Shown here: positions 22,084-25,234 of the stretch, in pieces
How positions within the stretch are numbered: position 1 is the first letter of the stretch
Layout: each line of letters begins with the position of its first letter
Assembly (NCBI RefSeq): GCF_030538755.1
Contig: NZ_JAUNTJ010000013.1
Span: forward strand, 19,103 to 83,102
Direction: 5' to 3'
Origin: Paracoccus sp. (in: a-proteobacteria)
GTDB taxonomy: Bacteria > Pseudomonadota > Alphaproteobacteria > Rhodobacterales > Rhodobacteraceae
DNA length: 64,000 bases
Position numbers and translations under genes: made by a program
The notes under the pieces: model-generated
Told to the model about the DNA's origin: nothing
Databases searched by the model: none
Seen by the model: only the letters and a program-made list of their open reading frames with translations

Positions 22084-22106
22084 CGGCGGCTGATCTGCCA
22101 AAGCGA

Positions 22107-22134
22107 TGACGCCGCCCGTTGCGGGGCGGCGTCA
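22107..22134. terminator. GC-rich hairpin between aroB and the ssb-intron unit
   Basis: A perfect 11-bp stem (TGACGCCGCCC / GGGCGGCGTCA) with a 6-nt loop sits between convergent genes. Before intron insertion it would have lain 8 nt after the ssb stop codon, so it was probably the ssb terminator and may serve aroB as well. Neither side has a clear U-tract downstream. Confidence 0.55.
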
Positions 22135-22140
22135 CGAAAA

Positions 22141-22230
22141 GTAGGGTAGAGCACGTGTTTCCGGGTTTGCCGGATGACCGTTGCTCCCCCTCCGAACCGG
22201 ACGTGCGGCTTTCACCGCATCCGGCTCTCC
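22141..22230 (-). ncRNA. Intron domains V and VI
   Basis: The catalytic hairpin (domain V) and branch-point hairpin (domain VI). Domain V pairs GAGCCGGATGCGG with CCGCACGTCCGGTTC around a GTGAAAG-like loop. Domain VI has a lower GGG/CCC stem, bulged A, and upper GAGCA/TGCTC stem. Both look intact, so the ribozyme may still splice. Confidence 0.8.
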
Positions 22231-22333
22231 ATTTCCGATCCTGCAAGAGCAAAGCGATTGTCCGAGAGCGTGCCCCGGTGAAGATCAACATGGCATGGGC
22301 GGCATAGCACCAAAGTCTTGCGACGCCGGGCAC

Positions 22334-24097
22334 TCATAAGCCGCTGCCAGTGCGAGGTTCCATCCTTGAGGTCCGCGAGCTTGCGCACGTGATAACCTCG
22401 AACGGAGCATCTTCAGTTCCGCAGTATTCACATTTTCGGGCCGCAATCCGTCGCAGCAGTTCCGAGCGAGATGCGAAGATGTGGATATTCGGCTTTTCAT
22501 CGGAGTTTTGCGAGACGACGACCCATCGGTGTTTCAACCGGAACACCGGCAGACGCCGTTCCTCTCCTTCCAGATGATAGGCAAGCGAGTGGCCATGTAC
22601 CGGGCAGCGCATACGCGCAAACATTTTACCCCAGCTTGTGTCGTGCTTCCGCGCCAGCGTTTTGTAGAGGCTCGTGTGGGCCATCCATTCCAGCCGGTTC
22701 AGATAGTACTTCGGTGCCAGTGCATAATAATTTGCGAACCCGCGAAGCTCCGCGTTGTATTGGGCTACGATCTCGTAGTCCGACAACGGCAGCATCATGG
22801 ACTTGAAGCGTATGTCATTTCTCCCGGCGTCCATGACGCCATATCCTTTCGCCATAGCGAAGTTACGGGTTTTCTCTTCCGGCACATAGAGATGGATGTG
22901 ATCGGTCACCGTGCGCTTGACAGCAAAGACTGTCTTGCCCGCAGCTTCCAACCGACATTTCATGCGTTTGTCGAGCCGACGGGTTTGGACCCCGTAGCCG
23001 AGGAAGACGGTGCCTTTGTTCATGGCACCCATCCGCGATTTCTCCGCCGAGATGGTGAGCTTCAGCGGCCCCTCAACGAAGGACCGGACCTCTGCCATGA
23101 TCTGCGCGGCCTCCTCTTTCGCGCCGACGATGCCGATAAGGAAGTCGTCGGCGTATCGCACGTAGTGCAATCGCTTGAATCCCTCGTCATGCATGTCAAC
23201 GCTGGGGAGAAGTGCTTTTGCCGCCTCCATCTCCTGCATTTCCTGTCGCCACCTTGCTGCGTTTGGATGGCTGTCGCCATGCATGCGCAGTTTTTGACGG
23301 CGAATGGATGCAAGATTATTCAGACGGCAGTACTCGGGATTGGGTTTCCTTCGAGCACCTCGATTGAATGCCGCGATCCGGGTCTCCATAAACTGATCGA
23401 GTTCATGGAGGTAGATGTTGGCGAGGATCGGCGATACGACGCCACCCTGCGGTGTCCCGCTGTAAGTGGCGTTATATGTCCAATCTTCGAGATAACCGGC
23501 CACGAGGAATTCCCTGATCAGATTCAGGAACACAGGATCATCGATCTTGCGCGCCAGAAGACCAAGCAGGGTTTCATGGTCGATATTGTCGAAGTAGCCC
23601 TTGATGTCGACTTCGCAGATCCACTTGGTGCCTTTCCACGATCGAACAATCTGGTTGAGCGCCGTGTGGCATGAACGCCCCGGCCGGAAGCCATGCGACC
23701 GGTCCGAGAAGACCGGTTCATAGATCACTTCCAGCAGGGTGCGCACGACCTCCTGCACCAGTTTGTCGTCGCCCGTGGGAATGCCGAGCGGGCGCTTCTT
23801 GCCTGCCGGATTCTTCGGGTCCTTGAGGATGTAAGTCCTGCGAACCGGAGAGGGTTTGTAGATGCCTGCGCTGATGGCATGCATCAACGCAGCAACTCGT
23901 TCCTCCCCGAACCCGTCGAGAGTGTTGCCCGTAACGCCGGGGGTGAGCGCCCCCTTGTTGGCGTAGAGCTTTGCATAGGCCGAATACCACAAATCCGCAT
24001 GCGTTCGCATGAGCTTGTGGAGTTTCCGGACCCTTGCCCCTCCGCAGGTGGCTTTACCCACGCCTTCCAATGCCGTGACGGTGCGAGCGGATAGCAC
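22334..24097 (-). CDS. ltrA: Group II intron reverse transcriptase/maturase, HNH domain frameshifted
   Basis: Intron-encoded protein of 587 residues. RT blocks are all present: RPLGIPTGDDKLVQE and HGFRPGRSCHTAL, EVDIKGYFDNIDHETLL, GTPQGGVVSPILANIYLHEL, the catalytic YVRYADDFLIG, LTISAEKSR and FLGYGVQ. A maturase X domain follows (LRGFANYYALAPKYYLNRL). An HNH endonuclease domain starts at CEYCGTEDAPFEV, but a 1-nt deletion near 22393 shifts the frame and the protein ends in unrelated residues. The +1-corrected frame continues HVRKLADLKDG, RRRKTLVLCRPCH, DLH and stops at 22212 inside domain V, as intact homologues do. Splicing may persist; DNA second-strand cleavage probably does not. Confidence 0.9.
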   Translation of the reverse strand: MLSARTVTALEGVGKATCGGARVRKLHKLMRTHADLWYSAYAKLYANKGALTPGVTGNTLDGFGEERVAALMHAISAGIYKPSPVRRTYILKDPKNPAGKKRPLGIPTGDDKLVQEVVRTLLEVIYEPVFSDRSHGFRPGRSCHTALNQIVRSWKGTKWICEVDIKGYFDNIDHETLLGLLARKIDDPVFLNLIREFLVAGYLEDWTYNATYSGTPQGGVVSPILANIYLHELDQFMETRIAAFNRGARRKPNPEYCRLNNLASIRRQKLRMHGDSHPNAARWRQEMQEMEAAKALLPSVDMHDEGFKRLHYVRYADDFLIGIVGAKEEAAQIMAEVRSFVEGPLKLTISAEKSRMGAMNKGTVFLGYGVQTRRLDKRMKCRLEAAGKTVFAVKRTVTDHIHLYVPEEKTRNFAMAKGYGVMDAGRNDIRFKSMMLPLSDYEIVAQYNAELRGFANYYALAPKYYLNRLEWMAHTSLYKTLARKHDTSWGKMFARMRCPVHGHSLAYHLEGEERRLPVFRLKHRWVVVSQNSDEKPNIHIFASRSELLRRIAARKCEYCGTEDAPFEVITCASSRTSRMEPRTGSGL

Positions 24098-24718
24098 TGA
24101 CTACCCTCCCTCGGGCATTCGTTGGCGTTGATCGTAAACTGCTCCCCTTCCTCCTTACCTCGGCGGGTTTCGTGGCCGTTGCCGGTCACTTATGCTGCCG
24201 TTTCAGGTCGGGCTGGTTACCGACTGCAATCCCCGTTACAGGATCACATCGAGTACTATGGGAGCTCCGTCGCCATATTGGACATGCATCCAACTTAGGC
24301 GATCCCGTATTCCCAGTCGGACAAGAACCGCTGTGGTTAGGCCCCGCGTTCGACCCTTTGCCACTCTCATTGAGCAGGCGTCGGAGAAGTCAGGTGAGGC
24401 AGCGTTCTAATCTCACTGCTCCATTCTCCGAGATGGCGTCTCATCAGTCTTTCGCCACCGATATCCCAAAACCGCTAAGGTCTACGATTCAACCAATCAA
24501 GGCTTGGCCATACACAGCTTGCAATGACGAAGACCGCGCTAGACTGATTCGCCGTCACTCGCCTTTTGTCCCAATATGCTGTTTTCCCCCGCCGGTTTTC
24601 ACCGGTTACTTCCTGTTACCAGGCCGAGGTGAATTGGGCTTGCAATGAACCTCCTGACAGTTCATGCTTACGAGGAAATTCCCCGTAAGCACTTGTTTCG
24701 ACTAGTAAAACGGCGCAC
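24098..24718 (-). ncRNA. Intron domains I-III (5' ribozyme portion)
   Basis: This 621-nt stretch carries no gene. It holds the intron 5' splice site (GTGCG at 24714-24718), the structured domain I with candidate EBS2 (24463-24467) and EBS1 (24404-24410), and domains II-III before the maturase ORF. Tertiary contacts were not modelled. Confidence 0.7.
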
Positions 24719-25234
24719 TCAGAACGGGATTTCGTCGTCGTAATCGGCGCGGCTGCCGCCGCCACCGGACGAACCGCCCCGGCTGCCGCCGCCCGAGGGG
24801 CCGTCGTCATAGCCGCCACCGCCGCCATACCCGCCCCGGTCGCCGCCATAGCTGCCGCCACCACCGCCGCCGCCCGAGCCGCCGCGGCCGTCCAGCATGT
24901 GCAGTTCAGACCGATAGGGGCGCAGGGCGACCTCGGTCGAATAGCGGTCGTTGCCGGACTGGTCCTGCCATTTGCGGGTTTCCAACTGACCCTCGACATA
25001 GACCTTGCTGCCCTTTTTCAAATACTGCTCGGCCACGCGGACCAGCGGTTCGGAATGGATGACGACGCTGTGCCATTCGGTCCGTTCGCGCCGTTCGCCG
25101 CTGTTACGGTCCTTCCACTGTTCGGATGTGGCGATACGCAGGTTGGCGATCTTGCCCCCGTTCTGGAAGGTGCGGATTTCCGGGTCTTGCCCCAGATTCC
25201 CGACCAGAATGACCTTGTTGACGCTGCCTGCCAT
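24719..25234 (-). CDS. ssb: Single-stranded DNA-binding protein
   Basis: Tetrameric SSB coating ssDNA in replication, repair and recombination. It has 171 residues: an OB fold (about 1-112) with [19 protein letters not shown] and [13 protein letters not shown], a Gly/Ser/Tyr-rich disordered linker (about 115-163), and the protein-recruiting tip DDEIPF. The stop codon is followed at once by the group II intron, so the coding sequence is intact even in unspliced RNA. The intron separates the gene from its presumed terminator hairpin at 22107-22134. It is divergent from the lytic transglycosylase gene. Confidence 0.95.

Follow-up and report, generated by a model that had tools for sequence, protein, structure and literature searches.

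A group II intron lineage that appears to recognise the DNA encoding the conserved C-terminal tip of SSB

A group II intron that begins at the very base following the stop codon of ssb raises the question of whether its RNA recognises the last codons of this gene, or whether it came to lie there in some other way. The question was addressed in the window, by which we mean the whole stretch of 64,000 nucleotides analysed here, from a draft Paracoccus genome (3.0 Mb, 50 contigs, 87% complete) in which a single copy of the intron was found.

The intron, its protein and the ssb locus

The locus comprises the following features:

24719..25234, minus strand: ssb (5' exon), open reading frame of 171 aa, PF00436 match (E 2.8e-36), C-terminus ...YDDEIPF-TGA
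22141..24718, minus strand: group II intron, 2,578 nt, GTGCGCC...CCCTAC, delimited by the RF00029 match and boundary comparisons
22334..24097, minus strand: intron-encoded protein, open through its reverse transcriptase (RT) and maturase part, 587 aa including an out-of-frame tail
22248..22394, minus strand: HNH endonuclease remnant in another frame, with a frameshift near 22394, located by tblastn with the protein of the Gluconobacter aidae copy (L002)
22141..22229, minus strand: domains V and VI (Rfam RF00029, 68.5 bits, cut-off 40)
22090..22140, minus strand: 3' exon, beginning TTTTCG and containing a strong hairpin (fold -25.7 kcal/mol), between ssb and the convergent aroB

On the minus strand ssb ends in the codons GAC GAC GAA ATC CCG TTC TGA, and the first intron base, 24718 (GTGCGCC), is the base directly 3' of the TGA, as the preliminary description of this DNA had claimed; this 5' end was aligned across five copies. 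At the other end, the RF00029 match to domains V and VI (22229-22141) places the intron terminus ...CCCTAC at 22141, in agreement with the Gluconobacter copy, for which the empty site is known. The downstream gene, convergent with ssb, was identified as aroB by PF01761/PF24621. Elsewhere in the window, a tRNA gene lies at 889-960 on the minus strand.

The group II character of the element is evident from domains V and VI, from an RT with maturase and from pairings between exon-binding (EBS) and intron-binding (IBS) sequences. The open reading frame matches PF00078 (9.9e-35) and PF01348 (5.4e-08), both above cut-offs, and falls just below them for PF08388 (22.4 vs 23) and TIGR04416 (279.9 vs 300). 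In a search confined to solved structures its nearest neighbour is LtrA (5g2x, E 1.7e-114), with the next best match at 3.2e-42. Because the protein is LtrA-like, the intron probably belongs to the ML/IIA (Ll.LtrB-like) subclass. With Ll.LtrB and the ML/IIA introns it shares an LtrA-nearest protein, RT, maturase and HNH domains (the last in L002), and two short pairings with the 5' exon; Ll.LtrB, in contrast, sits inside a relaxase gene, whereas the window intron would home to the ssb tip codons and insert after the stop.

An intact HNH endonuclease, a usual but not universal trait of ML/IIA introns, is lacking in the window copy and present in L002. The L002 protein aligns with the window over residues 2-574 in one frame and 575-623 in another, and its HNH domain (PF21368) has no match in the window reading frame. 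The frameshift may be an assembly error. As the sequence stands, the window copy is probably competent to splice but poorly mobile, since the frameshift breaks the endonuclease on which efficient homing would depend.

These observations bear on the idea that a group IIC-type insertion was guided by a hairpin near the ssb end. Group IIC introns insert after terminator motifs and are without an endonuclease domain, according to PMC4424553, and a strong hairpin does occur within 45 nt (<=45 nt) of the insertion site. This hairpin, which is absent from the terminator scan output and is therefore named a hairpin only, nevertheless lies on the 3' side, so that the intron is not inserted directly after a terminator hairpin; the protein is much further from the GsI-IIC RT (6.8e-41) than from LtrA; and L002 carries an HNH domain. 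We find a IIC-type origin barely credible.

Pairing with the SSB tip codons and the breadth of the target

Five short elements define the proposed recognition of the 5' and 3' exons:

24726..24730, minus strand: IBS2 ATCCC, bases -12 to -8, read from the sequence, 5/5 pairs with EBS2
24719..24725, minus strand: IBS1 GTTCTGA, bases -7 to -1 including the stop codon, 7/7 pairs with EBS1, one of them G-U
24463..24467, minus strand: EBS2 GGGAT, from sequence and pairing, co-varying with IBS2 in the Acetobacter tropicalis copy L003
24404..24410, minus strand: EBS1 TTAGAAC, in a predicted hairpin loop with its last base at the closing pair, supported by sister introns
24411, minus strand: A immediately upstream of EBS1, candidate delta nucleotide, possible partner of T 22140, where the 3' exon begins

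All four motifs named in the preliminary description were recovered on the minus strand at these coordinates (from intron nt 252 for EBS2 and nt 309 for EBS1), and its claim that all seven IBS1 pairs form, with one G-U, agreed with our computation, which adds the full EBS2 pairing. Two chance tests were applied. The loose test, in which any ordered complements 20-120 nt apart within the first 622 nt of the intron were accepted and G-U allowed, was passed by 3,162 of 16,000 random 12-mers from the window (~20%) and by 1,480 of 8,000 shuffles of the ssb site. Pairing by itself is thus poor evidence, because about one random 12-mer in five finds such a pair somewhere in the intron. Under the strict test, which held EBS1 within its 13-nt loop and the start of EBS2 within a 55-nt zone upstream, 165 of 127,976 window 12-mers passed (0.13%); pairing at 12/12 with exactly these EBS2 and EBS1 sequences (G-U allowed) was achieved by two of the 127,976, one of which is the ssb site itself.

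Domain I was assessed through alignment and sister introns; a permissive Rfam search of the 5' part of the intron returned one unrelated weak match (Yfr19, E 1.3). A hairpin bearing EBS1 was predicted in all four introns folded (the window copy, L002, L003 and L004, the last a second A. tropicalis copy), the loop holding the whole of EBS1 in L003 and L004, and the whole but its last base in the window and L002. The fold energies of these hairpins do not stand out (z -1.0 to -1.95), and around EBS2, folded in three of the introns, no clear structure emerged. Immediately 5' of EBS1 stands A in the window and L002 and U in A. tropicalis, with T and G, respectively, opening the 3' exon, combinations that would allow the delta-delta' pairing of the LtrA-like class in place of EBS3-IBS3, three cases not amounting to proof.

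If the intron recognises these codons, a suitable site should be widespread, as the preliminary description proposed, and this was borne out within the phylum of the window. Of 180 genomes of the phylum, 162 contain DNA encoding D-[D/E]-I-P-F followed by TRR (a stop or, rarely, TGG), and 7 contain a reversed control pattern. Among the 150 matches listed, which were unfiltered for ssb, 148 end in a stop codon, and these 148 tips pair with the window EBS2 and EBS1 at 12/12 in 98 cases, at 11/12 in 48 and at 10/12 in 2. At synonymous positions, only Pro codons other than CCG and the Ile codon ATA break the pairing. That wobble-tolerant EBS bases let one intron accept most synonymous tips is partly supported: a G faces the third position of both Ile and Phe and a UU the final two bases of each of the three stops, and the intron is not tolerant at the third position of Pro. 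Three of these bases are simply the Watson-Crick partners of ATCCCGTTCTGA. The fourth is the U, in place of a C, that faces the second base of the stop; with it, 98 of the 148 tips pair fully instead of 52.

Within the window's own genome, 30 places fit full pairing (G-U allowed) vs 36 for the reversed control. The exact sequence ATCCCGTTCTGA occurs there three times and is followed by the intron at ssb only; the two unoccupied sites (L083, L084) both have C at +1, and the ssb site has T.

Relatives at ssb, in sister lineages and in a phage gene

Relatives were sought by comparing the window protein with 84,980 species, each represented by one genome, in a scan that relies on exact 8-residue peptides and would miss more distant members, and three loci emerged out of ten candidate stretches. 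In G. aidae (L002; intact protein, 63% identical), the intron lies right after the ssb TGA with EBS2 and EBS1 identical to those of the window copy. In A. tropicalis (L003; protein 66% identical over its on-contig part), it lies right after an ssb TAA, and here EBS2 GGAAT stands opposite IBS2 ATTCC, where the window and L002 have GGGAT opposite ATCCC, a co-variation that preserves the pairing; EBS1 of L003 pairs at 6/7, with one mismatch. The 3' half of this intron is on a separate contig (L008), next to a gene that in 5 fetched related loci comes after ssb. The flanks of these copies are each host's own ssb neighbourhood in Gluconobacter and Acetobacter. The third locus (L004), in the same A. 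tropicalis genome, is a copy within a transposase gene (PF05598) that pairs at 3/5 and 5/7 and whose protein has an in-frame stop. The check that the preliminary description proposed, whether homologous introns lie after ssb stop codons, thus came out positive and supports its interpretation, as both other species with a close relative have a copy there; L004 and the sister introns considered below qualify this result. In a midpoint-rooted phylogenetic tree the four ssb-type sequences, of which two are partial, form a clade with 100/100 support; the program warned that this clade and the viral sequences are joined through long branches. The close family is rare: three host species and one phage contig were found.

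Most ssb loci in the three host genera are empty. In the genus of the window this holds for 19 of the 20 loci read (21 genomes searched, one without the locus), in Gluconobacter for 10 of the 11 with a recognisable tip (13 genomes and 12 loci, the twelfth showing no tip), and in Acetobacter for 14 of 15 (16 genomes), i.e., for 43 of the 46 loci read, a count that excludes further ssb-like copies in the same genomes. One Gluconobacter locus (L043) has the exact empty junction TGA-TCCTGTCAG, agreeing with both L002 junctions. The species nearest the window (L022) is without the intron and has different downstream DNA, so an exact empty 3' junction was not seen for the window. In a relative of Gluconobacter (L047), the ssb stop is followed by GTGCGCCC, with the rest of the intron start absent.

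Carriers are likewise scarce in broader samples. At strict cut-offs, one of 390 genomes sampled from the order of the window (its own) and one of 385 from the class carried the intron, with no other carrier in either set. In the Acetobacteraceae, 9 of 397 genomes had a match, namely G. aidae, A. tropicalis and seven at 42-46% identity. The pattern EIPF-stop-GTGYG occurred in one of 398 genomes of the phylum, again the window's own. The 5' part of the intron gave no DNA match in phages or plasmids with the window as query, and none in E. coli genomes with L002 as query; in a protein search, the best 5,000 plasmid records and all 51 phage records were each below 60% identity (<60%).

It could be argued that a single ancestral insertion at ssb was inherited vertically or carried along with the gene, given that the same site is occupied in three genomes and that the window and L002 introns are little more alike (73.0% over the 5' 603 positions, 65.2% over the whole) than their ssb genes (64.3%). 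For the window copy, this identity contrast is no proof of separate arrival. The Gluconobacter and Acetobacter introns, however, are 95.8% identical over 614 nt (L002 vs L003; 96.9% over 517 nt for L002 vs L008) while their ssb genes are 69.3% identical, which indicates that these two introns reached ssb separately. Together with the predominance of empty loci and the lack of other carriers in order and class, this makes shared ancestry highly implausible, and the patchy distribution suggests a separate arrival in the window genome as well.

A further explanation is survivorship: insertions would occur at many sites, and the only copies to last would be those lying harmlessly after the stop of a gene. 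Insertion after a stop is indeed harmless to the protein, and one A. tropicalis copy (L004) lies elsewhere. Nevertheless, in all three genomes found a copy follows the ssb stop and forms 11 or 12 of the 12 possible pairs, two of these three ssb copies arrived separately by the comparison above, and a filter for harmless sites would not single out ssb among thousands of stops. We regard survivorship as quite unlikely.

Sister introns at 41-48% protein identity were read at seven Acetobacteraceae loci and at seven plasmid loci, fetched out of 40 listed (L013-L019, L070-L076), with boundaries set by the GTGCGCC motif, found at the start of 13 of the 14. The exons at these loci are unlike the ssb tip, and because introns at this distance follow other exons, the ssb-tip specificity is confined to the present clade. 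One of the exons, that of L016, L017 and L076, does end in ...TACCTGA, with the last four bases common to the ssb site. These three are Acetobacteraceae copies of one sister intron at one site (...GTGTACCTGA) in a short gene.

Eleven of the fourteen sisters entered a search for the best complement of the intron's own exon, limited to intron nt 200-420 (L016 represented its site for L017 and L076 as well, and L075 was left out for its unrecognised start). The best complement fell at the place homologous to EBS1 in six of the eleven, compared with 14 of 110 mismatched exon-intron pairs, or 6 of 100 after removal of related pairs. The six represent three related sets (L014; L070 and L074; L071, L072 and L073), and in the other five the best complement lay away from the EBS1 place (with a tie for L013). 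The sister alphaproteobacterial introns thus have the start and the EBS1 position in common with the window intron but occupy different exons, for instance inside an ArdC gene. A common ...GTNTTCAAYG stretch, annotated as ArdC in L071, precedes the introns of L071, L072 and L073, and this lineage seems to have its own fixed coding target. No DUF932 label is applied to the sister gene of L014 and L015, as the tested stretch gave no Pfam family.

A search for the tip codons joined to the intron start matched four viral contigs, one of which (L011) continues as intron, with 118 nt that are 77% identical to L002 starting at the first intron base. Together, patterns of this kind matched the viral contigs L009, L010, L011, L012 and L020; from the 100-120 bases that follow the site and the lack of a YADD motif, the four other than L011 are judged not to be introns. 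The gene interrupted in L011 (124-501, minus strand) encodes a DUF6511 protein (PF20121, 1.1e-24, the match running to the end of the protein and of the profile) with the C-terminus ...FDDEIPF-stop, and it lies two genes away from a gene for a Sak4-like annealing protein. The contig stops 5' of where EBS2 and EBS1 would lie; its target, ATTTTGA, would call for an EBS1 in a shifted position. Among viral scans, the one with the window protein found no relative, the one with a pattern for the intron 5' end found only L011, and an alignment-based one found six relatives at 37-45% identity, outside the clade and with exons unread. Since DUF6511 shares the tip and is also interrupted, what the intron targets seems to be the DNA encoding the tip and not ssb as such. 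The phage DUF6511 protein may itself imitate the SSB tip to reach SSB-binding proteins.

A model for homing to the SSB tip and its implications

We consider it very likely that this is a mobile group II intron, probably of the ML/IIA subclass, belonging to a small lineage that homes to the DNA encoding the SSB C-terminal tip I-P-F-stop. The protein would be expressed from the ssb transcript, and the spliced intron RNA together with this protein would recognise ATYCC-GTTYTRR through EBS2 and EBS1. Reverse splicing would then insert the intron directly 3' of the stop codon, and cleavage of the opposite strand by the HNH domain of the protein would provide the primer for reverse transcription. 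Since the insertion follows the stop, SSB could be made with or without splicing, and purifying selection on the SSB tip would keep the target in most genomes of the phylum. In this light the intron looks like a selfish element, which recognises the coding sequence of the conserved SSB tail and leaves the protein unharmed. More tentatively, the lineage may track the motif rather than the gene, its RNA being tuned to I-P-F-stop codons anywhere (in ssb or in the phage DUF6511 gene) and phages ferrying it between families and orders; this extension remains rather doubtful.

A host-beneficial role, in which the intron is retained for regulating the processing or stability of the ssb mRNA 3' end, might be suspected from the way it parts the ssb stop from its natural 3' hairpin, as splicing would change that end of the mRNA. 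We judge such a role very unlikely, given that nearly all sampled relatives do without the intron and that the protein of the window copy is broken.

A precedent reportedly exists in the Azotobacter groEL intron of Michel et al. 2007, at the termination codon of that gene. PMC4465626 describes a groEL stop-codon group II intron, of a lineage with a large insertion at the 5' extremity. It too is a group II intron at the stop of an essential gene, but the gene differs. In the available text of the literature on group II introns, stop codons and ssb, no report of an intron at the ssb tip was found, although Michel et al. 2007 may name one; the available part of PMC7923331 contains no report of an ssb-stop intron, and among the matches listed for insertion sites, housekeeping genes, groEL, Gluconobacter and Acetobacter there was nothing on ssb.

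If the proposed reading is true, this lineage would represent a selfish RNA that couples a target held constant by selection with a position after the stop, where it is harmless even when unspliced, and its homing site would be ready-made in most sampled genomes of the phylum. With this lineage one could test directly how an intron RNA adjusts to a codon-degenerate target and how introns cross between phages and chromosomes, and the end of ssb, an essential gene, would be a candidate insertion site usable in a broad range of hosts.
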